NCBI GenBank assembly: GCA_015231795.1
Contig: JADGAX010000002.1
Span: 186,001 to 250,000 of the forward strand
Reading direction: 5' to 3'
Source of the DNA: Alphaproteobacteria bacterium
Lineage (GTDB): Bacteria > Pseudomonadota > Alphaproteobacteria > Rhodospirillales > WMHbin7
Length of the DNA: 64,000 bases
Position 1 is the first letter of the stretch. Each line of letters opens with the position of its first letter. Of the stretch, positions 4,555-41,938 are shown one piece after another. Below the pieces are notes generated by a model. That model searched no databases and had not been told where the DNA came from. It saw only the letters and a program-made list of their open reading frames with translations. Position numbers and translations under genes: made by a program.

Positions 4555-4564
4555 CGGATTCCCT

Positions 4565-12068: not shown

Positions 12069-13948
12069 TGTGCGGAATTGCAGGCGCGTTCTGCCCTGAG
12101 GGCGGCCCCCCAGGGGTTGATATCTCCGCCATGATCAGCGCCATCGCGCATCGCGGTCCGGATGGCGAGGGTGTTTGGATGGATGGGCCTGTTGCGATGG
12201 GCCATCGCCGACTTGCGATCCTTGACCTGAGTCCAGCCGCGGCGCAACCCATGCTGTCTGAATGCGGTCGCTTCGCCTTAATCTATAACGGTGAAATCTA
12301 TAACCATGACGAGTTGAAGCGGGAACTAATTGACCTTGGCTACGTTTTTCGAAGCCGCTCGGATACCGAGGTTCTCCTGATTGCCCTGTTGTGCTGGGGT
12401 GAGCGAGTCGTCAATAGACTTAATGGAATGTTTGCCTTTGCACTTTGGGACTGCAGGGAGAAGACGCTCCTGCTTGGTCGCGATCGCTACGGCATCAAGC
12501 CCCTTTACGTTGCTTGGAGCGGATCGACCTTTTTGTTCGGTTCCGAGATCAAGGCCCTTTTGGCCTCCGGAGTGTTAAGCGCAGAATTAGACCGCGAGGG
12601 TCTGACGGAATATTTTACCTTCCAGAATTTCTTTACTGAACGCACCCTGTTTCGCAACGTACACCTGATGCCTGCCGGCCATACGTTGCGACTTTCGGCA
12701 GATTCACAGCCCGGTATGTTTCGATTCAATCAATATTGGGATTTCTTGTTCGCAGAACCCACTTCCAATAACCGGGCGCAAACAGAGATTGCCGATGAAC
12801 TGGACCATTTGTTCGAACAGGCCGTAAAGCGGCAACTTGTCGCTGACGTCGATATTGGCGCCTACCTTTCAGGCGGTGCCGACTCTGGTTCCATCACGGC
12901 CATTGCGGCCCGCATGCTGCCAAATCTGCGCAGTTATACCGTCGGATTCGATTTGCGCTCGGCTTCCGGCATTGAAATGGCTTTCGACGAGCGCGCGTCA
13001 GCCGAGTACATGTCGTATCTTTTCCGCACAGAGCATTATGAAATGGTGCTGAAATCGGGCGACATGGAGCGCTCGCTTCCAAGCGTCGTGCGTTACCTTG
13101 AAGAACCACGCGTTGGCCAAAGCTATCCGAATTACTTTGCAGCCAAACTCGCATCACGCTCGGAAAAGGTCGTCCTTTCTGGAACCGGCGGCGACGAACT
13201 TTTTGGCGGTTATCCCTGGCGCTATTATCGCGCCACGCAGAGTTCTGATTTTCCATCCTATATCGACAACTATTATTCATACTGGCAACGTCTGCTCCCC
13301 CAGGGTATCGCCCAGAAATTCTTCGCGCCGATTTGGGGCGAGGCAAAATCCGTCGATGCTCGTGAAATTTTCCGCGGCGTATTTCGCAACAATGTCGGAC
13401 CGTTGGATCGACCGGAAGACTACATCAACCACTCTTTGTATTTTGAATGTAAAACTTTCCTTCATGGCCTGCTTTCGGTTGAGGACAAGCTGAGCATGGC
13501 CTTTGGTCTAGAAACTCGTGTTCCCTTTCTTGACAATGATCTCGTCGAATTCGCCATGCGGCTTCCAGTTCGCTACAAGCTTGCAAACCTAGGCGCGCTC
13601 AACTTCAGACTTAATGAGAATATTTCAGGACGGAAGAACGACATATTCTTCCAGAGGACACATGATGGAAAGTTGCTCCTGCGGGAAGTTCTCGGTCGCT
13701 ACGTTCCCGAGGAAGTGCGTAGCGCAGCGAAACAGGGTTTTTCCGCTCCGGATGCCAGTTGGTTTAGGGGCGAGAGCATCGACTACGTCCGTCGGCTCTT
13801 GTTGGAAGGCCCTCAGAGGTATGCGGAGTTTCTCGATAAAGATACAGTTTGCTCTCTTGTCAATGAGCACCTATCCGGAACGGAAAACCGCCGCCTGTTG
13901 ATCTGGTCGCTGATTTACTTTGAACGCTGGTGCAGGGAGTTTTTGTGA
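12068..13948 (+). CDS. asnB: asparagine synthetase-like glutamine-hydrolysing amidotransferase
   Basis: AsnB-type enzyme, 626 residues: an N-terminal class II glutaminase domain beginning MCGIAGAF with Cys2 as the nucleophile, and a C-terminal ATP-pyrophosphatase domain with SGGADS near residue 270. YNGEIYNH (about residues 76-83) and GRDRYGIKPLY are family landmarks. The start overlaps the previous stop by one base (TGATG). Paralogs of AsnB are frequent in O-antigen and capsule loci, where some are thought to amidate uronic acids or other carboxyl groups rather than aspartate. The location argues for such a role here, but it could simply make asparagine. Coupled downstream to the double hot-dog protein. 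Confidence 0.88.
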   Translation: MCGIAGAFCPEGGPPGVDISAMISAIAHRGPDGEGVWMDGPVAMGHRRLAILDLSPAAAQPMLSECGRFALIYNGEIYNHDELKRELIDLGYVFRSRSDTEVLLIALLCWGERVVNRLNGMFAFALWDCREKTLLLGRDRYGIKPLYVAWSGSTFLFGSEIKALLASGVLSAELDREGLTEYFTFQNFFTERTLFRNVHLMPAGHTLRLSADSQPGMFRFNQYWDFLFAEPTSNNRAQTEIADELDHLFEQAVKRQLVADVDIGAYLSGGADSGSITAIAARMLPNLRSYTVGFDLRSASGIEMAFDERASAEYMSYLFRTEHYEMVLKSGDMERSLPSVVRYLEEPRVGQSYPNYFAAKLASRSEKVVLSGTGGDELFGGYPWRYYRATQSSDFPSYIDNYYSYWQRLLPQGIAQKFFAPIWGEAKSVDAREIFRGVFRNNVGPLDRPEDYINHSLYFECKTFLHGLLSVEDKLSMAFGLETRVPFLDNDLVEFAMRLPVRYKLANLGALNFRLNENISGRKNDIFFQRTHDGKLLLREVLGRYVPEEVRSAAKQGFSAPDASWFRGESIDYVRRLLLEGPQRYAEFLDKDTVCSLVNEHLSGTENRRLLIWSLIYFERWCREFL

Positions 13949-21416: not shown

Positions 21417-22439
21417 ATGGTAAGAGACTTTCTCGTTCCCAGCCCGGACTTAAATGGCAAGACCATTCTAATTACCGGCGGCACCGGTTCTTTCGGCAAA
21501 CACTTTTCACACGCGGTTCTAAAGCGCTTTCAGGCAAAAAAGATCATAATCTTCTCGCGCGACGAGCATAAACAAGTCGAGATGATGCCAGACTTTAATG
21601 AAGTGGAAATGGACATCATGCGCTTCTTCATCGGAGACGTGCGAGATGAACAGCGCCTTGACATGGCCATGAACGGCGTCGATGTCGTCATCCACGCGGC
21701 TGCGCTCAAGCATGTGCCGGTAGCCGAGTACAACCCTTTCGAATGCATCAACACCAATGTGATGGGCGCCGAAAATGTCGTGCGCGCCGCCCTCAGGAAC
21801 AATGTGCCTAGGGTTATGGCGCTTTCGACCGATAAGGCCGTCAATCCTGTCAATCTATACGGCGCCAGCAAACTGGCCGCCGACAAGATATTTGTGGCGG
21901 CGAACCACCTTTCCGGCAACCGCCTTACACGCTTTTCAGTCGTCAGGTACGGAAATGTCGTTGGCTCGCGTGGAAGCGTCGTACCCTTGTTTCGCAAGCT
22001 GATTAGGGAAGGCGCAACCAGCCTTCCGATTACAGACCCTCGAATGACGCGCTTTTGGATCACGCTTGAGCAAGGCGTCAACTTTGTTCTATCCTCGCTT
22101 GCCATGATGCAAGGATGGGAAATCTTTGTTCCCAAAATCCCCAGCATGCGCGTCACCGACTTAGCGGCGTCCATGGGGGCAGGTCTGCCGCACAAGGTTG
22201 TTGGGATACGGCCTGGCGAAAAGCTGCATGAGCTTCTTCTGACAGAGGACGATGCCCGAGGAACCTTAGAGCTTGAGGACAGATATTTGGTTCTTCCAGC
22301 TTCTGCTGTGCCCGAAATGGAGCAGTACAAACAGCGCGGCGCAAAACAAGTTCCGGAGAGCTTTCGCTACGCCAGTGACACCAATGACGAATGGGCGAGT
22401 GCCGATCTCATCAATTCTTGGCTTTCTGACGAAACCTAA
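21417..22439 (+). CDS. pseB: UDP-GlcNAc 4,6-dehydratase (inverting), PseB-type
   Basis: Extended SDR of the PseB/FlaA1 group, first enzyme of pseudaminic-acid synthesis: it removes water from UDP-GlcNAc and inverts C5, giving UDP-2-acetamido-2,6-dideoxy-L-arabino-hexos-4-ulose. Visible marks: TGGTGSFGK (about residues 21-29), FSRDE, HAAALKHVP, and the active site STDKAVNPVNLYGASK (about residues 140-155). The Tyr in NLYGASK separates it from the FnlA/WbjB group, which has Met there. The remaining pse genes lie 16 kb downstream (37264-41938), an unusual split. It is followed 19 bases later by an RmlD-like reductase. Confidence 0.88.
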   Translation: MVRDFLVPSPDLNGKTILITGGTGSFGKHFSHAVLKRFQAKKIIIFSRDEHKQVEMMPDFNEVEMDIMRFFIGDVRDEQRLDMAMNGVDVVIHAAALKHVPVAEYNPFECINTNVMGAENVVRAALRNNVPRVMALSTDKAVNPVNLYGASKLAADKIFVAANHLSGNRLTRFSVVRYGNVVGSRGSVVPLFRKLIREGATSLPITDPRMTRFWITLEQGVNFVLSSLAMMQGWEIFVPKIPSMRVTDLAASMGAGLPHKVVGIRPGEKLHELLLTEDDARGTLELEDRYLVLPASAVPEMEQYKQRGAKQVPESFRYASDTNDEWASADLINSWLSDET

Positions 22440-22458: not shown

Positions 22459-23328
22459 ATGACGCTTCTAATCATCGGTGGGTCTGGAACACTTGGAAAA
22501 GCGCTTTGCGTCGAATCTCGTCGGCGCGGCATTGCCTATAATGGCTTGGCGCGCTCAGGCTCAGAAATCGAGCTGGACATTCAAGACGCTTGCGCCCTTG
22601 CAGGGGCCGTTATGGCCGTCAAGCCCACATTGGTCATCAATTCAGCCGCTATCGTAGATTTGGCGGTCTGCGAGAGCGATCCAGGCGGCGCCTATGCCGT
22701 AAATGCGCGCCCAGCAGCTATTTTGGCGCACACTTGCCGTGAGATCGGCGCCAAGTTCGTTCATATTTCCACCGATCACTTCTACTTGGGCGACTGCGAT
22801 GTGGCGCATGATGAGACGGCAAGCGTGACCCTGGTCAATGAATACGCAAGAAGCAAGTGGGCGGCAGAATCATTCGCCCTGACGCTGCCGGGCACTCTTG
22901 TCGTCCGCACGAATTTTACCGGCTGGCGCGGTCTTCAAAACCGTCCAACCTTCATCGAATGGGCCGTGCGCTCGCTTCTTGACCGCTCGCCACTGACCCT
23001 TTTCAACGACTTCTGGACTTCGACATTGGATGCGCCGAGTCTAGCCAAGGCAATTTTCGATTTGTCCTTCAAGGATGCTAGCGGCATTTTCAATGTCGCC
23101 TCGCGCACCGTTTCTACAAAGCAAGATTTTGTCGCAGCCGTTGCCTGTCAGATGGGGATTGATCTTGATTGGACCGTAACGGGTTCGGTCTCAGGCCTGA
23201 CGCCTATGCGCGCTGACAGTCTTGGCTTGAACGTCTCAAAGGCGGAAACGGCCCTTGGCTACAATTTGCCTACGCTCCAGCAGGCCATCACCAGCCTTCT
23301 CTCCTCGCGGCCCACAGGTTATATATGA
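22459..23328 (+). CDS. RmlD-like sugar nucleotide reductase
   Basis: SDR of the RmlD substrate-binding family (290 residues), which reduces 4-keto sugar nucleotides. The start is the ATG at 22459, giving TLLIIGGSGTLGKAL with the Gly-rich loop at residues 7-14; an upstream extension would run back into pseB. STDHFY and the YARSK catalytic pair (about residue 133) are kept. Stop and next start overlap by 4 bp (ATGA). Directly after a dehydratase it could reduce the 4-keto product to a 6-deoxy-amino sugar, as FnlB does in L-FucNAc synthesis, but the upstream enzyme is PseB-type, so the real substrate is open. Confidence 0.82.
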   Translation: MTLLIIGGSGTLGKALCVESRRRGIAYNGLARSGSEIELDIQDACALAGAVMAVKPTLVINSAAIVDLAVCESDPGGAYAVNARPAAILAHTCREIGAKFVHISTDHFYLGDCDVAHDETASVTLVNEYARSKWAAESFALTLPGTLVVRTNFTGWRGLQNRPTFIEWAVRSLLDRSPLTLFNDFWTSTLDAPSLAKAIFDLSFKDASGIFNVASRTVSTKQDFVAAVACQMGIDLDWTVTGSVSGLTPMRADSLGLNVSKAETALGYNLPTLQQAITSLLSSRPTGYI

Positions 23329-25016
23329 TTATTCTTGGCCTCGGCTTTCTTTCAGACGCATCGGCCTGCATCTTGCGAGACGGCGAGCTACTTGCTGCCG
23401 TAAGCGAGGAGAGGCTAAACCGCATTAAGCTATGGCATGGCGTTCCGCATGCATCCATAGAATGCGTTCTGGCGCAAACGGGTTTGTCGCTTCAGGATGT
23501 TGATTTGGTGGCCACGCATGGCGCAACCGATGGCGCCTTCGCGGAAATTCCATTCGACGATAAGGCCAAACTTATCAGCGACTCTTCTTTGTCCGCCGAG
23601 CGGAAGACCTTTCAGCTTAAGGCCCTGCAGTCCAGACGCGACCATGAACGAATGGTAGTTTCAGTCCGCACGCCTGACTATCTTGCCGAAGTAGCGAAAC
23701 TTGGCAGACCCGTCCGCGTCTATTCCCATCATCAGGCCCACGCCGCCTGCGCCTTTTACGGCTCGGGCTGGGAAGACGCGCTTGTGCTAACGGCCGATGG
23801 CTGGGGCGAGGATGCTTCATCTACCCTTTGGCTCGGTCATGGTTCTGAATTAACAAGGCTCTCTTATTCTCACACCTTCGATTCCCTTGGTTATTTCTAC
23901 GGGGGCATCACGAAGGCCCTTGGTTTCATTCCGCATCGTCACGAGGGAAAAGTGCTTGGGCTGGCCGCCTTCTGCGCTGATCCGAAATCCTATTCCGCCA
24001 TTGCTGATATGGTTGACGTATTGCCTGAAGAGGGCCGTTTCCTCGGACGCATGGAGAACGGTCTTTATTTGCCGCGCTACGACAATCCTGCGCTGGCTGA
24101 GTTCGTTATGGACTTTAGCCGCGAGGATGTCGCAGCTGCCGCGCAACGCCGTCTCGAAGAGGTTGTCTGCGCCCTCGTTGCCAAGCAAGGCGACAGGGCG
24201 CGTCGCTTGGCCCTGGCGGGGGGGATTTTCGCCAACGTCAAACTGAACCAAAGACTGGCTGAATTAGACAATGTTGAAGAGGTCTATGTCTTTCCAAACA
24301 TGGGAGACGGGGGACTTTCCGTCGGCTCGGCGTGGCTTGCCCACGCGGAAATTTATGGCGTCGCGCCTCGGCCAGCGACAAGCATGTATTTAGGTCCATC
24401 CATAGACAATCGTGAAGCGCTGGCGTGTTTGGAGCAATCGGGTTTTCCATTCACGCGCCCAGCGAACATCGCCGAGACTGTGGGGAACTTATTGGCTGAC
24501 GGACATGTGGTGATCCGTTGTACTGGCGCCATGGAATTCGGGCCGCGAGCTCTTGGCCACCGCAGCATTCTTTACCGCGCCAGCGACGCATCCGTGAACG
24601 ACTGGCTGAACCGTCGTCTTCACAGGTCGGAATTCATGCCCTTTGCCCCGGCAACCTTGGCCAGCGACGCGCCTTCTTGCTACAGGAATCTTGATGCGGG
24701 TCGCAGCCCGGCGCGCTTCATGGCCATGACCTTTGATTGCACACAAAAGATGAGGGAGCAGGCGCCAGCCGCCGTTCATGTTGACGGAACGGCAAGGCCG
24801 CAACTGGTCTCAGAAGCGGACTACCCCGATTTCTTCGCCATCCTAACCGCCTATCATGCCAAAACGGGCCTTTCAAGCCTCGTCAACACAAGTTTCAACA
24901 TGCACGAAGAACCGATCGTTTGCTCTGCGCAGGACGCCTTGCGCGCCTTCTCGGCAAGCGGCCTTCCTTTCATGGCGCTTGGCGACTTTCTGGTGGAGGG
25001 TCCCGATGTGGCGTAA
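23325..25016 (+). CDS. carbamoyltransferase (NodU/TobZ family)
   Basis: Carbamoyltransferase of 563 residues, transferring a carbamoyl group from carbamoyl phosphate to a sugar hydroxyl through a carbamoyl-adenylate. The N-terminal Kae1-like domain opens with ILGLGFLSDASACIL and carries the metal-binding block HHQAHAACAF (about residues 134-143). The C-terminal part contains EFGPRALGHRSIL, MPFAPA and LVNTSFNMHEEPIV, all hallmarks of the family. Length matches NodU and TobZ. It lies between an RmlD-like reductase and an oxidoreductase, overlapping both, so its acceptor is probably a sugar built by this operon. Which hydroxyl is carbamoylated cannot be said. Confidence 0.93.
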   Translation: MIILGLGFLSDASACILRDGELLAAVSEERLNRIKLWHGVPHASIECVLAQTGLSLQDVDLVATHGATDGAFAEIPFDDKAKLISDSSLSAERKTFQLKALQSRRDHERMVVSVRTPDYLAEVAKLGRPVRVYSHHQAHAACAFYGSGWEDALVLTADGWGEDASSTLWLGHGSELTRLSYSHTFDSLGYFYGGITKALGFIPHRHEGKVLGLAAFCADPKSYSAIADMVDVLPEEGRFLGRMENGLYLPRYDNPALAEFVMDFSREDVAAAAQRRLEEVVCALVAKQGDRARRLALAGGIFANVKLNQRLAELDNVEEVYVFPNMGDGGLSVGSAWLAHAEIYGVAPRPATSMYLGPSIDNREALACLEQSGFPFTRPANIAETVGNLLADGHVVIRCTGAMEFGPRALGHRSILYRASDASVNDWLNRRLHRSEFMPFAPATLASDAPSCYRNLDAGRSPARFMAMTFDCTQKMREQAPAAVHVDGTARPQLVSEADYPDFFAILTAYHAKTGLSSLVNTSFNMHEEPIVCSAQDALRAFSASGLPFMALGDFLVEGPDVA

Positions 25017-25980: not shown

Positions 25981-26005
25981 TCAATCATGAATGCGGAGTG
26001 ATTTT

Positions 26006-26641
26006 TTGACGCTGGCAATTGTGAATCTAGGCATCAGCAACGTCAGTTCGGTCGAACACGCTTTTGACAGGTTGGGCGTTGGCTGGTCGCGCGCCGATAG
26101 TCCGCAAGATATTGAAAGCGCCAGCGCAGTCGTCCTGCCGGGCGTCGGCGCATTTCCTGACGGAATGAGGCGTCTTGCCGCCAAGGGACTTGTTGAACCC
26201 CTAAGACGCCATGCGGGAACCCAGAGAAAACCCTTGCTTGGTATTTGCCTTGGCATGCAACTGCTAGCCGACCTGGGCGAGGAGCACGAACCTACGCAAG
26301 GTTTGGGCCTTATTCCCGGCAAGGTTACGCGGCTTCAGCCGCAGGAGGGGGCTCGCGTGCCGAATATTGGATGGTGCGGCGTGGAAGCGGCCGCCAATTC
26401 ACGCCTTTTCTCGTGCGCCAAGACAGATCCTACCTTCTACTTCGTGCACAGTTACCAATTCATATGCGAAAGCTCAGGTCACGTTTCCGCTACAATGCGG
26501 TTTGGCTCCACTTCTGTCGTGGCGGCCGTCGAATCGGGTCAGACCTTTGGCGTTCAGTTCCATCCTGAAAAGAGCCAGGATGCTGGAATGGACCTTCTTG
26601 AGGCCTTTGTCAAAATCATTGGCATGCGGATCGGAAGTTAG
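26006..26641 (+). CDS. HisH-like glutamine amidotransferase subunit, set 2
   Basis: Second HisH-type glutaminase. I prefer the TTG at 26006: it has GGAG seven bases upstream and gives TLAIVNLGISNVSSVEHAF, aligned with the usual HisH N-terminus. An ATG at 25991 would add five residues but has no ribosome site. The nucleophile Cys lies in GICLGMQLL and the His/Glu in FHPEKSQ, so glutaminase activity should be intact. Its partner begins three bases after its stop and is a HisF domain already fused to the amidotransferase, which makes the functional link between these proteins very direct. Not expected to act in histidine synthesis. Confidence 0.9.
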   Translation: MTLAIVNLGISNVSSVEHAFDRLGVGWSRADSPQDIESASAVVLPGVGAFPDGMRRLAAKGLVEPLRRHAGTQRKPLLGICLGMQLLADLGEEHEPTQGLGLIPGKVTRLQPQEGARVPNIGWCGVEAAANSRLFSCAKTDPTFYFVHSYQFICESSGHVSATMRFGSTSVVAAVESGQTFGVQFHPEKSQDAGMDLLEAFVKIIGMRIGS

Positions 26642-26644
26642 CGA

Positions 26645-28723
26645 ATGCCCTTTCCTCGTTTAATTCCCTGTCTGCTGCTCAAGAACGGTTTGCTGATGCG
26701 CAGCCAGTTGTTCAAGGTTCATCAGGTTATCGGCAACCCAATGAGCACGGTCGAACGGTTCTCGTCGTGGAACGTCGACGAGTTGGTTATTCTCGACATC
26801 AGCGCCGAAGACCGGCATGACCTGCGCCGCGACGATCTGGCACACCGCTACGACGGATCAACCGCCCTGGATGTCTTGAAGGCCATCGCCCGCGTTTGCT
26901 GCATGCCGCTGGCATTTGGCGGGCGCATACGGTCATTGGATGACATTTCCGCAAGGCTGGAAGCCGGAGCGGACAAGGTCGTCATCAACAGCCAGGCTTT
27001 GAAGTCTCCGCAATTCATTGCAAACGCCGCCAGGCGCTTTGGCAGCCAGTGTATCGTCGTCAGCATTGATGCTAAGCGTGCAGCCGATGGAAGTTACGAG
27101 GCATTCTCCGACAGCGGCGTCTGCCCTTCCGGCAAGACGGCATCCGCCTGGGCGCGGGAAGTTGAAAACCTGGGCGCCGGTGAGATTCTGCTGAACTCTA
27201 TCGACAGAGACGGTTCTGGTCTTGGATATGACCTTGATTTGGTTCGGTCGGTAACTGAAAGCGTTGCCATTCCCGTCATCGCGCTTGGGGGCGTGGGCAA
27301 TTACGGGCATTTCGCGCTAGGCGTCAAGGATGGCGGGGCGTCGGCCGTTTCGGCCGCCAACATCTTTCATTTCTTTGAACTCAGCTATCCATTGGCGAAG
27401 CAATCTTGCATTGATGCTGGCATTCCCATGCGTCGCGTTTCGCTTAACAGTCGGTGGTTTCCGCGAGAACCTGTTTTTGACGTACAGGCTGAAAATGCGA
27501 GGCTTGAAAAGCGGATGGCGCGAGCCAGGGCCATTCAGAGCGATGGGCCTGACGCAGACCCGTTTCCGCCGTCGCATGACGCAAGGCCAAAAGCCAGCTG
27601 GTGTACGAAATGCACTTACCCCTACCTATCTGCGGCGCCGATGGAGATGGATGACCAAGGCGTCTGCATGGGTTGCCGCATGTCAGAGGTCAAGCAAGCG
27701 ATTCCGATGTCTGAGTGGAATCGTAGACGAGATCTTCTAAAGGAGATCGTCGAGCAGGCACGATGCCGCGACGGCAGCAGACACGATTGCGTGATTGCGG
27801 TTTCAGGCGGCAAGGACAGCTATTTTCAAGCGCATGTACTGAAGAATGAATTTGGCCTTAATCCATTGCTCGTCACATACAATGGAAATAACTATACGCC
27901 GGTTGGATGGCGAAACCTTCATCGCATGAAGGAGGCTTTTGGTCTCGACCATGTGATTTATGCCCCAAATGTTGACGCGCTGAAAAAGTTGAACCGCCTC
28001 TCCTTTAAAGTCATGGGAGACATGAACTGGCACGCCCATGCGGGCATTACCACCATTCCAGTCCGCATCGCGGCACAGAACAAAATCCCGCTGGTATTCT
28101 GGGGCGAGCATGGCTATCTCGACCTTTGCGGACAGTTCTCGATGAACGACTTTCCAGAGATGAGCTATCGCGACCGGCTCGAGCATTTTGCTAGGAGCTA
28201 TGAGTGGAATTATTTTGAAGGCAGAGAAGGCTTGACCAGCCAGGACCTGATTCCTTGGAAGTACCCAAGCGACCAAGAATTGTTCGACCTCAATATGCGA
28301 GGCATATATCTTGGCAACTATGTTTACTGGGAGGCCAACAACCATACGGACATGGTCATTGAGCGCTACGGCTTCGAGGTCAGCGACGAGCCATTCGACA
28401 GGACCTACCGCAGAATGTCCAATCTGGACGACATGCACGAGAATGGAATTCACGACTATCTCAAATTCATTAAGTTTGGCTACGGACGCTGCACCGATCA
28501 CACCAGCAAGGACCTCCGGGCAGGCTTAATGGATCGTACGAAAGCGCTTGAGTTGGTAATGTCCTATGACCCGGTTAAGCCCAGGGACTTGGCACGTTGG
28601 CTGCAATATGTCGGAATGAGTGAGGCAGAGTTCGACGCAATTGCCGATACTTTTCGCGATCCTCGCGTATGGTGGCGAGAAGGCGGCAAATGGGTCAAGC
28701 ACGATATCATAGAGCAAGGTTAA
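26645..28723 (+). CDS. fusion of HisF-like domain and N-acetyl sugar amidotransferase, set 2
   Basis: Single 692-residue protein joining two proteins that are separate in sets 1 and 3. Residues 1-255 are a HisF barrel ([10 protein letters not shown] at 7-15, FGGR, LGGVGN). Residues 275-315 form a charged, possibly helical linker ([15 protein letters not shown]). Residues 319-692 are a WbpG/PseA-like amidotransferase with zinc-type Cys320, Cys323, Cys341, Cys344 and the PP-loop AVSGGKDS at 385-392. In the HisF part the cyclase Asp11 is Leu, while the second Asp (142) remains. The fusion would keep ammonia from HisH moving straight into the amidotransferase that makes an acetamidino sugar. No stop or frameshift lies between the domains. 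Confidence 0.92.
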
Positions 28724-29768: not shown

Positions 29769-30665
29769 ATGACTTCATTTTCACAATACAATGACATTTT
29801 TGCTGGACAGGATGCTTCGGAGCCGAAATGGCCGAAATGGCAAGCGCAGTGGATGCGCCTATATTCGCGTGTCCTTTTACACTTAGCCCAGCACCGGTAC
29901 TCAAGGCTAACCCAGGCGCAACTTCTTTCCCGCAAGACAAGTGACAGCATTTTTATTTTTGGTTCAGGTCTTTCAATTGAAAGCCTGTCGCCAGAGGAAT
30001 GGGAAGCCTTTTCCCGCCACAACACAATGGGCTTCAACTGGTTTGCCTTTAACCAGCGCGTTCGGATCGACTATCACCTTGTCAGAGAAACCGTTGCATT
30101 CAACAACATTTCTCATATGTGGCGCGTTGTCAGATATTATGGCGAACTCATCGCAGAAAATATTTGTTATTCGAATTGCGTTCTCATATATCAGGATGAA
30201 TTGAGAGGTTTTGCTTCTGCCAGATTGCTTGCCTCCGGTGCCCTGCGAGAGGGGATGGCCGTTTTTCCATACCACACGAAATCCAGAGGCAAGAGCGAGC
30301 CTCCTAGTAAGAGCTTTTCCGAAGGCCTCGTGCATGGCGCCAGCACTTTGATTGATTCCATAAATTTCGCATCAATCATGGGATATAGGCATATCGTGCT
30401 GGTTGGAGTCGACCTTTACGACTCCCGCTATTTCTTTGCTCAAGATGGCGACAAGAGCACCGAATGCCAGCGCGGAAATAGCGCCGATGACAAGCACCAT
30501 TCTACCAGGAATGAAATTATCCCATTTCTGGAAAGTTGGGGGCGCCACCTTGCCAATCAAGGCCAGCGGCTTTCTGTTTACAACCCACGCTCTCTTCTTG
30601 CCGAAGTGCTTCCAACCTATCCAAGTTTCCAAAAGACATGCGCTACTTCCAACCATGAGAAATAA
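29769..30665 (+). CDS. GT42-like (sialyltransferase-fold) candidate transferase
   Basis: Protein of 298 residues without an obvious named match. Its order of motifs resembles the GT42 sialyltransferases CstI/CstII: a start strand and loop FIFGSGLSIESL (residues 62-73), MGFNWFAFN (87-95), the block IMGYRHIVLVGVDLYD (203-218), a His in KHHSTRNE (242-249) where GT42 has its general base, and YNPRSLLAEVLP (271-282), which parallels the CstII C-terminal LCPNSLLANFI. The window also encodes a nonulosonic-acid synthase, so a transferase for CMP-activated acid is needed. Alternative: another member of the DUF115/Maf Rossmann group. I start at ATG 29769; a TTG seven codons upstream is possible. Confidence 0.6.
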   Translation: MTSFSQYNDIFAGQDASEPKWPKWQAQWMRLYSRVLLHLAQHRYSRLTQAQLLSRKTSDSIFIFGSGLSIESLSPEEWEAFSRHNTMGFNWFAFNQRVRIDYHLVRETVAFNNISHMWRVVRYYGELIAENICYSNCVLIYQDELRGFASARLLASGALREGMAVFPYHTKSRGKSEPPSKSFSEGLVHGASTLIDSINFASIMGYRHIVLVGVDLYDSRYFFAQDGDKSTECQRGNSADDKHHSTRNEIIPFLESWGRHLANQGQRLSVYNPRSLLAEVLPTYPSFQKTCATSNHEK

Positions 30666-30666
30666 T

Positions 30667-31860
30667 ATGTCCAATCTTCGTCTCTGCACACGTTGCGTCA
30701 TGCCGGAAACAGCGGAATCTCTCACCTTTGATACGCAAGGCGTCTGTTCAGTTTGCAAACAGATCGAGGTCAAGCAGACGACCGTGGATTGGGCCGCCAG
30801 AGGCGCTGAGTTTTCCATGATCGTCGATAAGGTCAGGGGCCGGCATGATTACGACTGCATTGTTCCTTTTTCGGGCGGCAAGGATTCCACATATACGCTC
30901 TGGCATCTTGTGAAGGAAAGAGGGCTGAAACCCCTTGTCGTTCGATTTGACCACGGCTTTATGCGCCAAAACTTGCAAGAGAACGTCTTAAGGACCCTCA
31001 GAATTCTGGGGTGCGACGCCGTCACTTTCACGCCAAACTGGCAGGTCGTGCGCAAGCTTATGTTTGAATCTCTGAAGCGGCGCGGTGATTTCTGCTGGCA
31101 TTGTCACACGGGTATTTTTGCATACCCAATGTGGGTGGCTCTTGAAAAATGCGTGCCGCTCGTCATTTGGGGTGAGCCCTCTTCTGAATATTCTTCGTTT
31201 TATTCATATGAGGATGATGAGGAAGTTGACGAAAGGCGATTCAACGCCTTCGTCAATCTTGGCATCAATGCAGAAGACATGTTAGGCATGTTGGATAATT
31301 CCATCTCATCCTATCCTGTGACGCCACGAGACTTGAAGCCCTACACCTATCCGCCTGCGGTGGAAATTCGCAAAGGCAAAATTCGTTCGGTGTGCCTTGG
31401 CTCTTACCAGCCATGGGATGTCAAGGAGCAGACGAAGATCATAGAGCGCGAATTGGGATGGAAGGGTGACGAGGTTGAGGGTGTTCCGCCGGAATATTCC
31501 TATGAGAAGATTGAGTGCTTTATGCAAGGCGTCCGTGACTATCTGAAGTTCCTTAAACGCGGTTTTGGCAGAACGTCTCATCTGGTTTCCATCGACATAC
31601 GCAACAACCGCAAGACAAGGGCGGAGGCGCTGGACTTGGTTGAGCGCTACGATGGCAAGAAACCTTATGCTTTGGAATTGTTTCTGTCCTATCTCGGCAT
31701 TGACGAACCAACCTTTTACAACCTGGTTAAAATGCATGTCGTCGCCCCGCACTCGATGCCGCCTCAGAGCGACCTAATGCAGTCAGTATCCGACTGGAAA
31801 CCTGCCGACGCAGCCAGATGGCCACGCATTTCCGGCGACAGGGATTGGGACGTCGGCTGA
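30667..31860 (+). CDS. N-acetyl sugar amidotransferase (WbpG/PseA-like), set 3
   Basis: Third amidotransferase of the WbpG/PseA group, 397 residues from the ATG at 30667 (one at 30655 would add four). The start gives SNLRLCTRCVMPET. Zinc-type Cys residues 7, 10, 27 and 30 are followed by the PP-loop PFSGGKDS (67-74). It resembles the C-terminal part of the set 2 fusion more than set 1, sharing FWGE/IWGE, DYLKF(I/L)K.G(Y/F)GR and the SGGKDS loop. Here the gene order is amidotransferase, HisH, HisF, the reverse of set 1. It begins one base after the GT42-like gene. Confidence 0.9.
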   Translation: MSNLRLCTRCVMPETAESLTFDTQGVCSVCKQIEVKQTTVDWAARGAEFSMIVDKVRGRHDYDCIVPFSGGKDSTYTLWHLVKERGLKPLVVRFDHGFMRQNLQENVLRTLRILGCDAVTFTPNWQVVRKLMFESLKRRGDFCWHCHTGIFAYPMWVALEKCVPLVIWGEPSSEYSSFYSYEDDEEVDERRFNAFVNLGINAEDMLGMLDNSISSYPVTPRDLKPYTYPPAVEIRKGKIRSVCLGSYQPWDVKEQTKIIERELGWKGDEVEGVPPEYSYEKIECFMQGVRDYLKFLKRGFGRTSHLVSIDIRNNRKTRAEALDLVERYDGKKPYALELFLSYLGIDEPTFYNLVKMHVVAPHSMPPQSDLMQSVSDWKPADAARWPRISGDRDWDVG

Positions 31861-31865
31861 CAATA

Positions 31866-32495
31866 ATGCGAATTTCAATCGTCGACTGCGGCGTTGGAAA
31901 TCTGGAATCCGTCAGAAATTCCTTTTTGCGCCTTGGCGCTGAAACCGAAGTGGTTGATACCCCGGAAGCCGTCTTGCGCGCTAGCCGCCTTGTGCTTCCA
32001 GGCGTCGGCGCGGCTGGCTATGTTCTTGATGCTTTGCGACATCGTGGCCTTGATGCTGCCTTGAGTGAGGCGGTTTTACAGAATGCTACGCCTTTACTGG
32101 GCATATGCGTAGGCATGCAGATTATGGCCTCGACCTTGCACGAATTCGGCAGACATCAGGGGCTAGGATGGATCAAGGGGGAAGTTGTGCCTTTGACGAG
32201 CGTTCGAGAGGGGCCGCCAATCCGGGTGCCTCACATGGGCTGGAGTCCCATCACAGTTGAACCAGTCGGCCAGAATTTCTTCGTCGACATTAGAGGAGAG
32301 AAGCAGTTTTACTTTTGCCACTCCTTTGGCCTTTTGGATGCAAGCGCCGAGATTGTGTCGGCCAGCTGCGCGTATGGACAACCGTTTGTCGCTGCCCTGC
32401 AATGGCAAACGGTGTTTGCCACGCAATTTCACCCGGAGAAGAGCCAGAGTAACGGCGAGAAACTATTGTCGGCTTTTATGGACTGGGCACCCTGA
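31866..32495 (+). CDS. HisH-like glutamine amidotransferase subunit, set 3
   Basis: Third HisH-type glutaminase, 209 residues. The ATG at 31866 gives RISIVDCGVGNLESVRNSF, the normal HisH start; a longer frame extends into the amidotransferase. Cys in GICVGMQIM and the His/Glu pair in FHPEKSQ are present. Five bases separate it from the amidotransferase stop, and the HisF start follows immediately after its own stop. It should supply ammonia to the set 3 amidotransferase through the HisF-like protein. Confidence 0.9.
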   Translation: MRISIVDCGVGNLESVRNSFLRLGAETEVVDTPEAVLRASRLVLPGVGAAGYVLDALRHRGLDAALSEAVLQNATPLLGICVGMQIMASTLHEFGRHQGLGWIKGEVVPLTSVREGPPIRVPHMGWSPITVEPVGQNFFVDIRGEKQFYFCHSFGLLDASAEIVSASCAYGQPFVAALQWQTVFATQFHPEKSQSNGEKLLSAFMDWAP

Positions 32496-33248
32496 ATGCC
32501 ATCAAACCGCATAATTCCTTCGATGCTGCTGCGCAAGCAGCGTTTGGTGAAGGGCGTTTCCTACGCCAATCATCAAGATGCCGGAGCGCCAGCAACGACC
32601 GCAAAGGCCTATGACGCACAGAAAGCGGATGAATTGATTTTAGTCGATATAGACGCCGCTCGGGAAGGAAGGGGGCCTGATCTAGAGGCCGTTCGCGCGG
32701 TTGCAAGAAACTGCATGTCGCCCCTTACTGTTGGTGGAGGCATCGTTTCACCTGAGATCGGACGCTCCTGTCTTGGCTCCGGCGCTGACAAATTATGCGT
32801 CAACTCGACAGCTCTTGCCAAACCTTCGCTTATCGAAGAGCTGGCCCACGCCTTTGGCAGTCAGGCGGTGGCTCTTGCCCTGGACTTGGTTCGGGATAGG
32901 CATGGCTGGCTTATCTATGATCATCTCAAGGGAACGTGCTTTGAGCAGCCTTGGCAGGACTGGGTGGTCATGGCGCTCCGGCTAGGCGCCGGGGAGATCA
33001 AACTGACGTCCGTCGACCGAGAGGGAACTCGGACAGGGCTTGATATTCAATTGTGGCAAGCAGCACGCGCCATTGGCGACGTTCCAATGATTCTTGAAGG
33101 CGGCGCAGGATCGCTGGACCACCTTGCCCACGCTATGACTGAAGGTGTGGACTCGATTGCCATTGGCACCATGCTTGTCTTTTCAGACAACAACATCATT
33201 CAACTGAAGCGCCACCTAAAGAATATCGGGTTCCCGATCAGAATGTAA
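32496..33248 (+). CDS. HisF-like ammonia-channel subunit, set 3
   Basis: Third HisF-type barrel, 250 residues. The N-terminus RIIPSMLLRKQRLVKG aligns with HisF; position 11 is Leu instead of the cyclase Asp, and the conserved Cys9 is Ser. Asp130 is kept (LALD), as are VGGGI (79-83) and EGGAGS. Compared with sets 1 and 2 it has drifted further from HisF around the first loop. It ends seven bases before the convergent acyl carrier protein gene, closing the long forward operon that begins near 18300. No terminator hairpin was seen in the gap. Confidence 0.88.
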   Translation: MPSNRIIPSMLLRKQRLVKGVSYANHQDAGAPATTAKAYDAQKADELILVDIDAAREGRGPDLEAVRAVARNCMSPLTVGGGIVSPEIGRSCLGSGADKLCVNSTALAKPSLIEELAHAFGSQAVALALDLVRDRHGWLIYDHLKGTCFEQPWQDWVVMALRLGAGEIKLTSVDREGTRTGLDIQLWQAARAIGDVPMILEGGAGSLDHLAHAMTEGVDSIAIGTMLVFSDNNIIQLKRHLKNIGFPIRM

Positions 33249-37263: not shown

Positions 37264-39309
37264 ATGACAACGCTTGCCCTCATCCAAGCCCGCATGGGTT
37301 CCTCGCGCTTTCCCGGCAAGATGTTGACCGATCTCTGCGGCAAGCCACTATTACAGTGGTGCGTCGAGGGGGCGTCATTGATACCGGGCGTCGACAAAGT
37401 CGCCGTCGCCACCTCAAGCGCGCCATCCGACGATGCAATTGCGGCTTGGTGTCAGGCCAACGGCGCGGCTTGTCATCGCGGCTCCGAAGAAGACGTCTTG
37501 GATCGCTTCTATCAGGCGGCCAAATCGGAAGGCGCCGAAACCGTTCTGCGCCTGGTCGGCGATTGCCCTTTGCTCGATCCAATCGTCTGCGGCCAAGTAT
37601 TGATGTTGTTGCGCATGACGGGCGCCGATTACGCGGCATCGTGCAATCCGCCTTCCTGGCCGGACGGACTCGATGCCGAGGCCATGACTTTTGCCGCCCT
37701 GGAAACGGCGGCCAAGCACGCCAAGCGCAAGCCGGAGCGCGAGCATGTCACGCCTTGGCTGCGCAATAACCGCCATCGCTTCAAGGTGGAACTTCTGGTC
37801 TGCCCTCTGCCGAACCTGTCGCACGAGCGCTGGACGGTGGACTATCCCGAAGATCTGGAATTTCTGAAGGCCGTCATTGAAAGGCTGCCCAAAGACCGCC
37901 GTCCGTCTTACCTTGATGTCTTGTCGGTTTTGATGGCAGAACCCGATCTGCGCAAGATCAATTCTGGGTCGGTTCGCAACGAAGGGCTGGCGCGCTCTCT
38001 TGCCGCCGAACCAGTCCCGCAGGAGCGAGACTACACTGCATCAAAAGCCATGTTTGAGCGGGCGGTGAAAACCATTCCTCTGGCCTGCCAAACCTTCAGC
38101 AAATCCCACATACAGTGGCCAGCGCCAAAAGCGCCGCTTTTCCTCACGCATGGCGAGGGCGGCAGGTCCTGGGACATTGACGGAAACGAGTATGTTGATC
38201 TTGTTTCCGGCTTGTTGCCGGTCGTTTTGGGCTACCAGGACCAGGATGTCGATCAAGCGGTTCGTCGCCAATTGACCAATGGCGTATCGATGAGTCTTGC
38301 CACGGAATTGGAAACCCAGTTGGCCGAGCGATTCGCTCGTTTGATCCCTTGCGCGGAAATGGTGCGTTTCGGCAAAAACGGAACCGATGCGACCTCCGCT
38401 GCCGTTCGCATCGCACGCGCGGCCACGCGCCGCGACCGCATCGCGGTTTGCGGCTATCATGGCTGGCAAGATTGGTACATCGGCGCCACGACGCGCAACA
38501 AAGGCGTGCCCGCCGCCGTGAGCGGCCTTACGCATATGCTGGCCTACAACAACCTGGACAAGCTGCGCGAAACGCTGCTGTCACATCCTGGAGAGTTCGC
38601 GGCCATTATTATGGAGCCAATGGGCGCCATCGAACCTTACCAGGGATTCCTGGCCGAGATGATGGAATTGGCCCACCAACATGGCGCTCTGTTTGTCTTT
38701 GACGAAGTGATTACGGGTTTTCGCTATGCCCTAGGCGGCGCTCAAAGCTACTTCAGCGTCACGCCAGACCTTGCATGTTTCGGCAAAGCCATGGCCAACG
38801 GCCTGCCCATAGCCGCCGTTGTCGGCAAGGGTAGATATATGCGCGAAATGGAGGAAATTTTTATCTCCTCGACTTTCGGCGGCGAGGCTTTGTCCCTGGC
38901 CGCCTCGATCGCCACCATTGACAAAATGGAGCGCGAGCCAGTGATCGAACGGCTCTGGTCTACGGGCGCTAGGCTCGCTACTGGCGCGCGGGAACGCATT
39001 AAGGCCGCGGGACTCGAAGGGGTCATTACACTGTCCGGCAGCGCGCCTTGGATGATCCTGGGTGTGACCGATCACCCCAAGGCCCGCAAGGAGGCCATCA
39101 AGACCCTGTTCTTGCGCGAGATGCTGCGGGCCGGGATATTGGTCAACGCCAGCCACAACGTCACTTACGCCCACAATGAGGCAGATGTCGTCAATGTGTT
39201 GGCAGCCTATGAATCGGCGCTGTCGATCGTGGCCTGCGAATTGGATGGCGGCAAGCTGGAAGATCGGCTTGGCCTGCCGGTGATTGAGCCTGTCTTCAAG
39301 GTCCGCTAG
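37264..39309 (+). CDS. fusion of SpsF/PseF-type cytidylyltransferase and class III aminotransferase
   Basis: 681-residue bifunctional protein. Residues 1-235 are a cytidylyltransferase of the SpsF (COG1861) type: LIQARMGSSRFPGKML (6-21) is the nucleotide-binding signature and LVGDCPLLDP the metal-site block; it should activate a nonulosonic acid with CTP. Residues 255-660 are a fold-type I class III aminotransferase of the glutamate-1-semialdehyde kind: FGKNGTDATSAA, FDEVITGFRY and the PLP Lys in CFGKAMANGLP. It heads the operon with PseH, PseG and PseI. The aminotransferase half could perform the amination normally done by PseC, which is not in this operon, or add an amine elsewhere on the acid. 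No internal stop separates the parts. Confidence 0.9.
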   Translation: MTTLALIQARMGSSRFPGKMLTDLCGKPLLQWCVEGASLIPGVDKVAVATSSAPSDDAIAAWCQANGAACHRGSEEDVLDRFYQAAKSEGAETVLRLVGDCPLLDPIVCGQVLMLLRMTGADYAASCNPPSWPDGLDAEAMTFAALETAAKHAKRKPEREHVTPWLRNNRHRFKVELLVCPLPNLSHERWTVDYPEDLEFLKAVIERLPKDRRPSYLDVLSVLMAEPDLRKINSGSVRNEGLARSLAAEPVPQERDYTASKAMFERAVKTIPLACQTFSKSHIQWPAPKAPLFLTHGEGGRSWDIDGNEYVDLVSGLLPVVLGYQDQDVDQAVRRQLTNGVSMSLATELETQLAERFARLIPCAEMVRFGKNGTDATSAAVRIARAATRRDRIAVCGYHGWQDWYIGATTRNKGVPAAVSGLTHMLAYNNLDKLRETLLSHPGEFAAIIMEPMGAIEPYQGFLAEMMELAHQHGALFVFDEVITGFRYALGGAQSYFSVTPDLACFGKAMANGLPIAAVVGKGRYMREMEEIFISSTFGGEALSLAASIATIDKMEREPVIERLWSTGARLATGARERIKAAGLEGVITLSGSAPWMILGVTDHPKARKEAIKTLFLREMLRAGILVNASHNVTYAHNEADVVNVLAAYESALSIVACELDGGKLEDRLGLPVIEPVFKVR

Positions 39310-39336: not shown

Positions 39337-39870
39337 ATGAACGATGCCCCTGTCCTTAAAAGCGGCAATGTCGAATTGGCCCTATTTGGCCGTGAGCATG
39401 TCAGCGAGCGCTACCTCGGCTGGATTAACGATCCCGTCACCATGCGCTATACCGAGGCGCGCTATCGCTCCTACAGCCGGGAGGAAGCGGAAGCCTATGT
39501 CGAAGCCAGCAACGCCGGAGCATCCGCAAGACTATTTCGAATTCTCAGCGATGGCCGTCATGTCGGCAACCTAAGGCTTTCCGACATCAATTATTTTCAT
39601 CGCAGAACGGACATGGCCATCATCATCGGCGAGCCGGATTGCCGAGGAAGGGGCGTCGGAGCCGCCGCCATCGGTCTTGGCGCACGCTTCGCCTTTTCCG
39701 CCCTGGCCCTGCACAAGGTTACGGCTGGCATGTATTGCGTCAACCAGGCTTCCGTCCGGGCCTTTGAAAAGGCAGGTTTCAGAACCGAGGCGCTGCAGAA
39801 AAGCCACTATTTCTGTGAGGGCGAGTGGGTTGATGGCATCCTCATGGGGAAATTGGCCCCAGACGCATGA
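39337..39870 (+). CDS. pseH: PseH-like N-acetyltransferase (GNAT)
   Basis: GNAT-fold acetyltransferase of 177 residues. In pseudaminic-acid synthesis PseH uses acetyl-CoA to acetylate the 4-amino group of the UDP-sugar made by PseC. Typical blocks: YLGWINDPVTMRYTEAR at about 25-41, the acetyl-CoA loop CRGRGVGAAAIGLG (about 104-117) and ASVRAFEKAGF near residue 140. It precedes PseG with a 4 bp overlap (ATGA). RimJ/RimL-type protein acetyltransferases look similar, but the operon makes PseH the best reading. Confidence 0.86.
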   Translation: MNDAPVLKSGNVELALFGREHVSERYLGWINDPVTMRYTEARYRSYSREEAEAYVEASNAGASARLFRILSDGRHVGNLRLSDINYFHRRTDMAIIIGEPDCRGRGVGAAAIGLGARFAFSALALHKVTAGMYCVNQASVRAFEKAGFRTEALQKSHYFCEGEWVDGILMGKLAPDA

Positions 39871-40883
39871 CACGGCCAAAACAGGCGCTTTTTCGTTGTG
39901 ACGCCTCAGCCCAGCTAGGTGGCGGGCATGTGATGCGCTGTTTGGCGCTTGCAGATCACATGACGGCGCGTGGCTGGCGTTGCGTTTTTGCATCTTCATA
40001 CGACCTTGCCACACTCGTTCCCGCGTTGGCTCGGGCGGGACATCGCTTTCTGCGCCTACCTTCGCCGCTTGACCTTGTGCCGCAGACTTGGGAACTTGTC
40101 GTTGTCGATAGCCCGGAATCGTCTTATTCGCTTGAACAAATTTGGCGCAAATCGGCGGACGTCCTGTTGTCTTTTGAAGACATCCCCAGTCCCCGGCATG
40201 AATGCGACATCCTTATCAACCAGAATCTTGGTCAGGAATCCTCTTACGAGGGCGCTGCCCTCGCCCCGAATGTTCGCCTGCTTCTGGGTCCCTCTTTTGC
40301 CCTGCTCAGGGCCGAATTTTCCAACATGCGTTCGACGGCGCTGGCTCGCCGGAAGGACGATCCTGCCCGACATCTCTTGCTGTCTCTGGGGCTGATGGAT
40401 GGCGACAACATCACCGGATGGGTCCTGGAATGTTTGGAATTCATTGACCAGCCGCTTGAGATTGACGTCGTTCTGGGCAGCCAAGCGCCTCATCTTGCGG
40501 CCGTGCGCAGGCAAGCCAAGACCTCAAAGCACCGGATTGTCATCCATGTGGACAGCAACGACATGGGCAAGCTGATGGTCAAGGCGGATCTGGCGATTGG
40601 CGCAGGCGGCATCACCTCGTGGGAGCGTTGCTGTCTGGGCCTGCCCTCGTTGATTCTTCTGCTGGCGGAGAATCAGCGGTCGAATGCCCAAGAGCTAGAC
40701 AGGATGGGCGCCGCCCTGAATCTGGGCGCACTTACTACATTGGGACGTGATAAACTTGCCTTGGAAGCAACGCGCCTGCTTGGCGATGCGAGGGCACGGC
40801 TGGCAATGTCGGTCAGGGCAGCGGCGGTATGCGATGGCATGGGGGCAAGACGAGTGGTTCAAGTGATTGAGGATGCCCGATGA
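39867..40883 (+). CDS. pseG: PseG, UDP-sugar hydrolase
   Basis: GT-B-like hydrolase that removes UDP from UDP-2,4-diacetamido-2,4,6-trideoxy-beta-L-altropyranose. The N-terminal [12 protein letters not shown] block places the catalytic His at about residue 21, and the C-terminal [20 protein letters not shown] matches the nucleotide-binding loop. 338 residues is normal for PseG. Its start overlaps PseH and its stop overlaps PseI by 4 bp each. Its presence is the main reason for reading this operon as pseudaminic-type rather than legionaminic-type, since the latter uses a NeuC-like hydrolysing epimerase. Confidence 0.9.
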
Positions 40884-41938
40884 GCCACAACATCGTCATT
40901 TCTGGCCGCGAAATTGGCCCAAACCAACCGCCCTACGTGATTGCTGAAATGTCGGGTAATCACAATGGGTCGCTGGACCGCGCTCTGGCCTTGATTGAAG
41001 CGGCGCACAAGGCAGGCGCCGACGCCATCAAACTGCAAACCTATACGGCAGACACCATCACCATCGACCATGATGGGCCGGAATTTTTTATCACCGGTGG
41101 CCTTTGGCATGGAAAATCGCTTTATCAACTGTACCAGGAGGCATCAACCCCCTGGGAATGGCACGAGGCTCTATTCGCCAAGGCCCGCGCATTGGGAATT
41201 GGCGTCTTCAGCACGCCGTTCGATGAAACGGCGATCGACTTTCTGGAACAGCTGAACGTTCCGGCCTACAAGATCGCCTCTTTCGAATGCGTCGATTTAC
41301 CTTTGATTCGCAGAGCGGCGCAAACTGGCAAGCCCCTCATCATTTCCACCGGAATGGCGGACGAGCGTGAGATTGATGAGGCCGTTCAGGCGGCGCGGCA
41401 GGCAGGCTGCAAGGAGCTGATCCTTCTTCATTGCGTCAGCGGCTACCCGCTCCCTCCAGAGGACGCCAATCTGCGCACCATGGTCGATCTTGGCCAGCGA
41501 TTCCAGACACTGGTCGGCCTTTCAGATCACAGTCTGGAGACCGCCGTCTCGACGGCTGCCGTGGCCCTAGGTGCGCAAGTCATTGAGAAGCATGTCACTT
41601 TGGCGCGTTCGGACGGGGGGCCAGACGCCGCTTTTTCCCTTGAACCCGACGAATTGGCAAGGTTGGTTCAAGGATGCCGCGCAGCGCATGCGGCGATGGG
41701 TCGAATCGATTACGGTCTGAAAAGCAGCGAGCGGGCGAATATCGTCTTTCGACGCTCGCTCTACGCCGTTAAGGACATCGCGCTAGGCGAGATCTTCACC
41801 AAAGATAATGTTCGCTCCATCCGCCCCGGATACGGCTTGGCGCCCAAGCATCTGCCAGACCTACTGGGGCGGCGCGCCAGCAGCGCCCTTTCTAGAGGAA
41901 CGGCGCTGAATTGGTCAATGGTTTCCAAAGGAGAATAG
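40880..41938 (+). CDS. pseI: PseI, pseudaminic acid synthase (NeuB family)
   Basis: NeuB-family synthase that condenses the 2,4-diacetamido altrose with phosphoenolpyruvate to give the nine-carbon acid. The N-terminal TIM barrel begins [20 protein letters not shown], and [32 protein letters not shown] and HCVSGYP follow in order. [20 protein letters not shown] carries metal and substrate residues. The last 60 residues are a SAF/antifreeze-like domain ([13 protein letters not shown]), common to all members. [12 protein letters not shown] is of the PseI type. Overlaps PseG by 4 bp; followed by the 2-epimerase. Confidence 0.93.

Follow-up and report, generated by a model that had tools for sequence, protein, structure and literature searches.

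Does a HisF-like barrel hand ammonia to an N-acetyl-sugar amidotransferase (NASAT)? The question is raised by a single open reading frame of an alphaproteobacterium (Rhodospirillales, WMHbin7), in which the two proteins are joined as one chain. We analysed 64,000 nucleotides of contig JADGAX010000002.1 (assembly GCA_015231795.1, positions 186,001 to 250,000), hereafter the window, and positions are counted from its first letter. A link of HisF and HisH to this amidotransferase family is already known from the family names and the literature; in the literature covered, the service of HisF2 and HisH to acetamidino-forming amidotransferases has so far been assumed from gene neighbourhoods. No paper describing a HisF-NASAT fusion was found in open-licence PMC among the matches listed. 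A natural covalent fusion makes the pair available to structure work as one chain and defines where to look for a hand-over.

A HisF barrel and an amidotransferase in one frame

The earlier note had described one uninterrupted frame of 692 residues, and this is what we find: 692 codons, from an ATG at 26645 to a stop codon finishing at 28723. The gene follows that of a HisH-type glutaminase at a spacing of 3 bp (TAG, CGA, ATG), with both genes in the same frame. The features needed for the argument, all on the + strand, are as follows.

25991-26641, +: HisH-type glutaminase, 216 aa, partner of the fusion (TIGR01855; triad C86, H191, E193)
26645-28723, +: HisF-NASAT fusion protein, 692 aa (single open frame, family models, AF2)
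26645-27436, +: HisF-like barrel, residues 1-264 (NCBIfam and structure comparison)
26798-26863, +: beta2-alpha2 loop, residues 52-73, with the HDLRRDD motif, on the exit face, ~12 residues beyond cyclase HisF
27437-27598, +: linker, residues 265-318 (R274-E275-P276 conserved, helix 280-303 predicted, 304-318 variable)
27599-28720, +: NASAT domain, residues 319-692 (TIGR03573, match to 8WEX)
27602-27676, +: tetracysteine (zinc) motif C320, C323, C341, C344, invariant in a 37-row fusion alignment
27803-27820, +: PP-loop S387-GGKD-S392 (ATP pyrophosphatase motif), invariant in the same 37 rows

Among the NCBIfam models, the WbuZ/HisF-type barrel was found at residues 4-243, and the HisF model covers 5-263. 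The barrel had been placed at residues 1-255; its identity holds, but the HisF model and the AF2 structure match put its end near residue 264. Likewise, a charged linker at about 275-315 is present but partly ordered, with a conserved R-E-P-x-[YF] motif in 258-279, a predicted helix at 280-303 and a poorly conserved stretch at ~304-318. The assignment of 319-692 to a PP-loop amidotransferase is borne out by TIGR03573 at residues 319-667 (297.1 bits, above the curated cut-off of 203.2) and by the 8WEX fold over 313-692. Both motifs that define NASATs in passages of PMC10607449 are present, the PP-loop SGGXDS and the tetracysteine CXXCXn[GN]XCXXC. The adjoining HisH scores 198.6 bits against a cut-off of 105.4, and the Cys-His-Glu triad is kept in 36/36 HisH of other fused loci, as well as in 37/37 from loci with no fusion. 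In the alignment used for HisH, the HisH rows are 37-54% identical.

Predicted assembly with HisH

The AF2 model of the fusion (101 rows) has a pLDDT of 94.1 and a pTM of 0.93, and because of this pTM the barrel and the NASAT are predicted to pack rigidly, in a confidently fixed relation. Residues 1-264 of the model match the HisF structure 1h5y_B (Z 36.0, rmsd 1.7, 245 residues), and residues 313-692 match the NASAT 8WEX (Z 38.5, rmsd 2.4, 351 residues).

The earlier note had proposed modelling the complex of HisH with the fusion. We modelled the two, together with nine natural rows of similar kind, as one chain of 910 residues in which the HisH stop was read as glycine because it is the sole stop separating HisH from the fusion. 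This read-through model has a pLDDT of 88.6 and a pTM of 0.83. The pLDDT falls below 50 at residues 1-3 and at the artificial joint, 211-219, and is 63-64 in two further ten-residue blocks. Residues 2-489 superpose on yeast HisHF (1jvn_A), with 460 residues matched at 2.5 A, so that canonical docking of HisH, the part of the proposed check that this model addresses, is predicted, while the NASAT part still matches 8WEX. Because the match to 1jvn_A is obtained with the NASAT also placed, HisH is predicted to occupy the barrel entry in the canonical way known from yeast imidazole glycerol phosphate synthase, with the NASAT not competing for that place, in a model whose artificial joint of two residues may by itself draw HisH and the fusion together.

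In both models, the HisF designs 5d38 and 6c8b align as far as fusion residues 546-549, within the NASAT (read-through residues 764-767, minus 218); the chains of these designs run on to 259-260, which we infer to be a tag. This hints that the NASAT occupies the same place in both models. Because HisH occupies the entry and only the exit side is altered, the barrel exit is the likeliest dock for the NASAT in these predictions. Indirectly, this favours an exit that faces the PP-loop, and so speaks against the second refuting condition of the earlier note.

The alteration of the exit side is confined to one loop. The beta2-alpha2 loop has 22-23 residues in the fusions versus 10 in cyclase HisF, and every other loop of the fusions is within one residue of cyclase HisF at the median. 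Among 105 HisF-NASAT pairs, the long loop was found in 79/79 in which the NASAT shares at least 45% identity with that of the window and in 0/26 of the others. Since such pairs are inherited together, this association may go back to a single event in the ancestor of a clade. A coevolution test with a reduced alphabet (105 pairs, effective 53) did not distinguish the top from the bottom HisF loops for the NASAT (p 0.80), and its HisF-HisH control (88 rows) also failed (p 0.67). The cyclase active site sits at this same C-terminal face of HisF, according to passages of PMC11350729.

Both faces of the barrel are conserved in the fusions. Identity of at least 90% is seen at 39/99 exit-face loop positions and 19/36 entry-face positions, with 14/77 for helix positions and 21/45 for strand positions. 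In the numbering of T. maritima HisF, which is used for the barrel below, R5, E46, K99 and E167 are the residues of the ammonia gate. The barrel in the window keeps all four, as R5, E46, K111 and E180. Among the fused rows, R5 is present in 35/35 with a letter at that position and the equivalents of E46, K99 and E167 in 38/38; in the 51 separate HisF rows the four residues are found in 51, 51, 50 and 51, respectively.

A proposed ammonia relay

For the histidine enzyme it is established, as stated in passages of PMC8115485, that the ammonia path leads from HisH across HisF to the opposite face. The features of a HisF-type conduit are found here as well, in the retained gate and in a HisH docking face that is used canonically in the model. 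The conservation and the AF2 models agree with a conduit role, which we regard as partly supported. We favour a relay, with a probability of about 0.78, in which glutamine-derived ammonia passes from HisH through the HisF pipe to the ATP site of the fused NASAT to give an acetamidino sugar. The fusion would then act as the synthase half of a sugar amidotransferase that depends on glutamine. HisH would dock on the barrel at its N-terminal face and hydrolyse glutamine; the ammonia would pass the conserved gate, cross a barrel that no longer makes imidazole glycerol phosphate and leave at the C-terminal face, straight into the NASAT pocket. The NASAT, described as an ATP pyrophosphatase fold in part of PMC10607449, would use ATP (yielding AMP and PPi) to activate the acetamido oxygen of an N-acetylated sugar, and ammonia would displace this activated oxygen to form the acetamidino group. 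The acceptor would be a nonulosonic (pseudaminic-type) sugar or a precursor of one. The sealed tunnel, the NASAT chemistry, the transfer of ammonia into the NASAT and the acceptor substrate are inferred.

A stricter form of this relay, towards which we lean only slightly, has three sites: the (beta-alpha)8 barrel would be demoted to a pipe and sealed into a covalently fixed, ATP-dependent enzyme of unrelated fold, and the HDLRRDD insert and the ordered linker would serve as the gasket.

The fusion had been called direct genetic evidence that the HisF-like protein hands ammonia to the amidotransferase. This wording is too strong because a fusion demonstrates partnership and not the passage of ammonia; a physical HisF-NASAT partnership, by Rosetta stone reasoning, does stand. 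A channel could be dispensed with if the fusion only fixed stoichiometry and co-expression, with HisF allosterically activating HisH and the ammonia diffusing to the NASAT. Such an arrangement would fit the many relatives in which the proteins are encoded by separate adjacent genes, but it leaves aside the retained gate residues, the prediction of the two domains as one rigid body and an exit-face loop that is enlarged only with this type of NASAT, and we consider it unlikely.

Neighbourhood and candidate substrate

The acceptor proposed for the relay comes from the surrounding genes, several of which are of the pseudaminic acid type.

21417-22439, +: PseB, UDP-GlcNAc 4,6-dehydratase, upstream of the fusion (TIGR03589, 508.1 bits, cut-off 407.75)
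39337-41938, +: pseudaminic acid genes, GNAT acetyltransferase (PseH-like by position), then PseG and PseI
39867-40883, +: PseG (224.2 bits, cut-off 153.55)
40880-41938, +: PseI (499.7 bits, cut-off 340.25)

Campylobacter flagella are known to carry acetamidino forms of pseudaminic and legionaminic acids (passages of PMC3958885), and the product of the fusion is perhaps an acetamidino sugar of this kind, a pseudaminic acid. At the other fused loci, neighbourhoods of ~6 kb were covered, some contigs being shorter. At least one pseudaminic-type gene was found within this distance at 8/37 of them (clusters 9, 12, 13, 15 and 18, named from one representative or from the member in the window, cluster 15 by cytidylyltransferase matches below NCBIfam cut-offs). 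Two other kinds of gene, a DUF4910 gene and an asparagine-synthase-like gene, were each found at 14/37, the loci with DUF4910 having another kind of neighbourhood, so the fusion clade may serve more than one sugar.

These recurrent genes, often accompanied by methyltransferases, also leave room for a NASAT that uses the same pipe architecture with another acceptor or nucleophile, for example to thiolate or amidate a molecule that is not an N-acetyl sugar. We regard this as improbable, given a NASAT score far over the cut-off, an invariant PP-loop and tetracysteine, and the pseudaminic genes in the window and at the eight other loci.

Other genes nearby deserve mention. The window holds a second natural fusion at 37264-39309, directly preceding the GNAT, PseG and PseI genes, which joins a CMP-sugar-type cytidylyltransferase (residues 5-174) to a class III aminotransferase (290-631). 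At 23325-25016, with PseB on one side and the HisH and fusion genes on the other, lies a NodU-like carbamoyltransferase, which scores under the cut-off of the NodU model. The recurrence of DUF4910 and asparagine-synthase-like genes can be seen, for example, at 3941-5347 and 10707-12578 of locus L016.

What the barrel has lost

The relay supposes a barrel that has given up its own chemistry. In the HisF cyclase, D11 is the general acid and D130 the base, as given in the covered part of PMC11350729. The barrel in the window has L11 in place of the acid and keeps the base, as D142. Asp is found at the D11 position in 0/37 fused rows with a letter there (Leu in 36, Phe in 1, with a gap in one further row) and in 0/51 separate rows, which have Leu, Tyr, Phe or Asn, and it is present in both canonical HisF of the genus. 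The D130 equivalent is kept in all 38 fused and 51 separate rows, and other features of the cyclase site, the D176 equivalent and the phosphate-loop glycines, survive as well. By sequence, the loss of D11 is a feature of this HisF group and not of every amidotransferase-adjacent HisF-like protein, since two proteins of the genus retain D11.

These two HisF-like proteins, at 1489-2247 of L003 and 1504-2262 of L012, appear to represent a different state of the barrel change. In the L003 protein, whose gene lies ~1 kb away from that of a NASAT, the D130 site is occupied by Glu; the L012 protein retains Asp there.

The fused barrel scores 215.2 bits with the HisF cyclase model TIGR00735 (cut-off 294.55), 247.1 with the WbuZ model TIGR03572 (cut-off 299.7) and 213.7 with the AglZ/HisF2 model NF038364 (cut-off 310). 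Because it reaches the curated cut-off of none of these three HisF-type models, the fused HisF is an unnamed subgroup, related to WbuZ and AglZ/HisF2.

Could the barrel still be a working imidazole glycerol phosphate synthase that links histidine and glycan synthesis? The retained D130 and D176 equivalents and phosphate-loop glycines would allow it, but this is very improbable in view of the missing D11, the score under the TIGR00735 cut-off and a canonical hisF elsewhere in the genome (372.1 bits, above the cut-off), which stands beside a HisA-like frame and a HisH. The fused barrel, which has lost D11, now probably only pipes ammonia.

Spread and ancestry of the fusion

The HisF-NASAT fusion is not peculiar to this genome. 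A scan at one genome per species gave at least 79 loci, and both domains lie in one frame in 38/92 loci, the window itself (L001) included. After further searches the fusion was found in 44/182 loci, which amount to 38 distinct proteins with that of the window, as judged over the last 640 residues. The same domain order was thus recovered elsewhere, as the earlier note had suggested looking for, in 37 other distinct fused proteins, cultured strains among them: Rhabdaerophilum calidifontis, Leptolyngbya PCC 6406, Acidovorax delafieldii DSM 64 and Desulfovibrio A2. These proteins, from independent genomes, rule out an assembly or sequencing error that removed a stop between the domains as the source of the fusion; nothing was found in favour of such an artefact, and purifying selection on the linker in the pairs compared also speaks against it.

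That selection was estimated in six related pairs. The linker dN/dS is 0.05-0.33 in five of them; in the sixth (L036/L040) the linker ratio is 0.09, with dS saturated in both domains and 3.4 in the linker. Since other fused proteins exist and dN is lower than dS in the linker, the joint is a maintained coding feature, its linker under purifying selection in the pairs compared.

By the record titles, the 38 distinct fused proteins span nine phyla. Pseudomonadota contribute 16, Thermodesulfobacteriota, Myxococcota and Cyanobacteriota four each, Actinomycetota three, and Verrucomicrobiota, Armatimonadota, Planctomycetota and Fidelibacterota one each; three, the one in the window included, have no phylum label. 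The Fidelibacterota label is doubtful, because the protein of L038 (titled Candidatus Marinimicrobia) is identical over its last 640 residues to that of L095, from a genome assigned to the same order as the window; L038 is likely a mislabelled metagenome bin.

Within taxa the fusion is sparse. With a match required to reach E 1e-80 and to cover the two domains within a single open frame, it was found in 4/297 genomes of the order and in 3/398 of the phylum sample, the window's genome being counted in each. It was found in 0/3 other members of the genus, two of which are 81-87% complete. Such patchy presence, scattered over many phyla, suggests horizontal spread.

Trees built from the domains, with the linker proper excluded, point to shared ancestry and one origin of the fusions. 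A NASAT tree of 109 rows has all 38 fused rows on one side of a branch (SH-aLRT 99), and in a NASAT tree of 87 rows the fusion clade has a support of 100/100 and is recovered in all of 200 bootstrap trees; in both NASAT trees, some long-branch joins occur among unfused rows. The HisF tree (96 rows) again has the fusions as one clade, with a support of 98; some long end branches in this tree, and some in the 87-row NASAT tree, are likewise among unfused rows.

HisH accompanies the fusion at 43/44 loci, and the exception, L035, begins within the fusion. No HisH-HisF-NASAT triple fusion was seen among the collected loci; the long HisH frames at L034, L044 and L064 stop at or before the start of the fusion. 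A plasmid search (E 1e-40 or better) gave no single place covering 80% of the query in 28 records, a phage search (E 1e-20 or better) gave none in the best 10 of 13 records, and none of 65 viral-contig loci had a frame with both domains. Two IMG/VR contigs labelled as viral (L118 and L119) carry HisF2 and NASAT as separate genes, and their HisF proteins are without the beta5-alpha5 hairpin region (model positions ~145-167).

Comparison with known systems

The same three activities are adjacent in the systems of P. aeruginosa O5, E. coli O145 and Campylobacter, which have a NASAT of the WbpG/WbuX type, a group in which we take PseA to belong, with separate HisH and HisF2. The TIGR03573 model, the PP-loop and the tetracysteine are shared with the fusion (PMC10607449, in part), whereas HisF2 and the amidotransferase are separate chains there and one chain with an ordered linker here. 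Passages of PMC2147049 document the WbpG-HisH-HisF trio both in Arcobacter and for the O-antigen of P. aeruginosa, and a Sphingomonas screen yielded all three as separate genes affecting colony morphology (passages of PMC11340318). The NCBI name for HisF2 is acetamidino modification protein.

Compared with imidazole glycerol phosphate synthase (yeast His7, T. maritima HisFH), HisH docks alike in the model (1jvn) and the gate residues are shared, but the fusion is without D11, has the exit-face loop insert and probably has a second enzyme at the exit face in place of PrFAR chemistry. The yeast fusion is also of a different kind, joining HisH to HisF and not HisF to NASAT. The L. pneumophila NASAT (8WEX) has the same fold as the C-terminal domain of the fusion but is a stand-alone protein; its paper, in the passages covered, does not discuss HisH/HisF as the ammonia source. 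A survey of archaeal fusions (PMC11237513) names HisH-HisF and HisA/F-HisIE fusions, and the terms 'N-acetyl sugar' and 'acetamidino' do not occur in the part of it that was covered.

Other copies and annotation

The earlier note was also right that the two further sets in the window consist of separate proteins: HisH-HisF-NASAT at 3922-6509 and NASAT-HisH-HisF at 30403-33248, the latter standing beside the fusion. The 3.6 Mb genome has five NASATs, two of them outside the window (C2:124110 and C2:150114), and several of the five have their own HisH and HisF; of its five HisF-like genes, one is the canonical hisF. Such a genome offers rich material on amidinated glycans. Acetamidino sugars occur as decorations of flagella and O-antigens (passages of PMC3958885 and PMC10607449), and the presence of the fusion in dozens of other genomes makes the hand-over of ammonia testable. 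The fusion suggests that a metabolic barrel has been reused as a conduit. It also helps to correct annotation, as HisF and HisH copies of this kind are still read as histidine genes. For example, HisH Cj1315c and HisF Cj1314c are read as histidine biosynthesis genes in the covered part of PMC12102941. They are numbered next to PseA, Cj1316c, and their histidine annotation is probably wrong.
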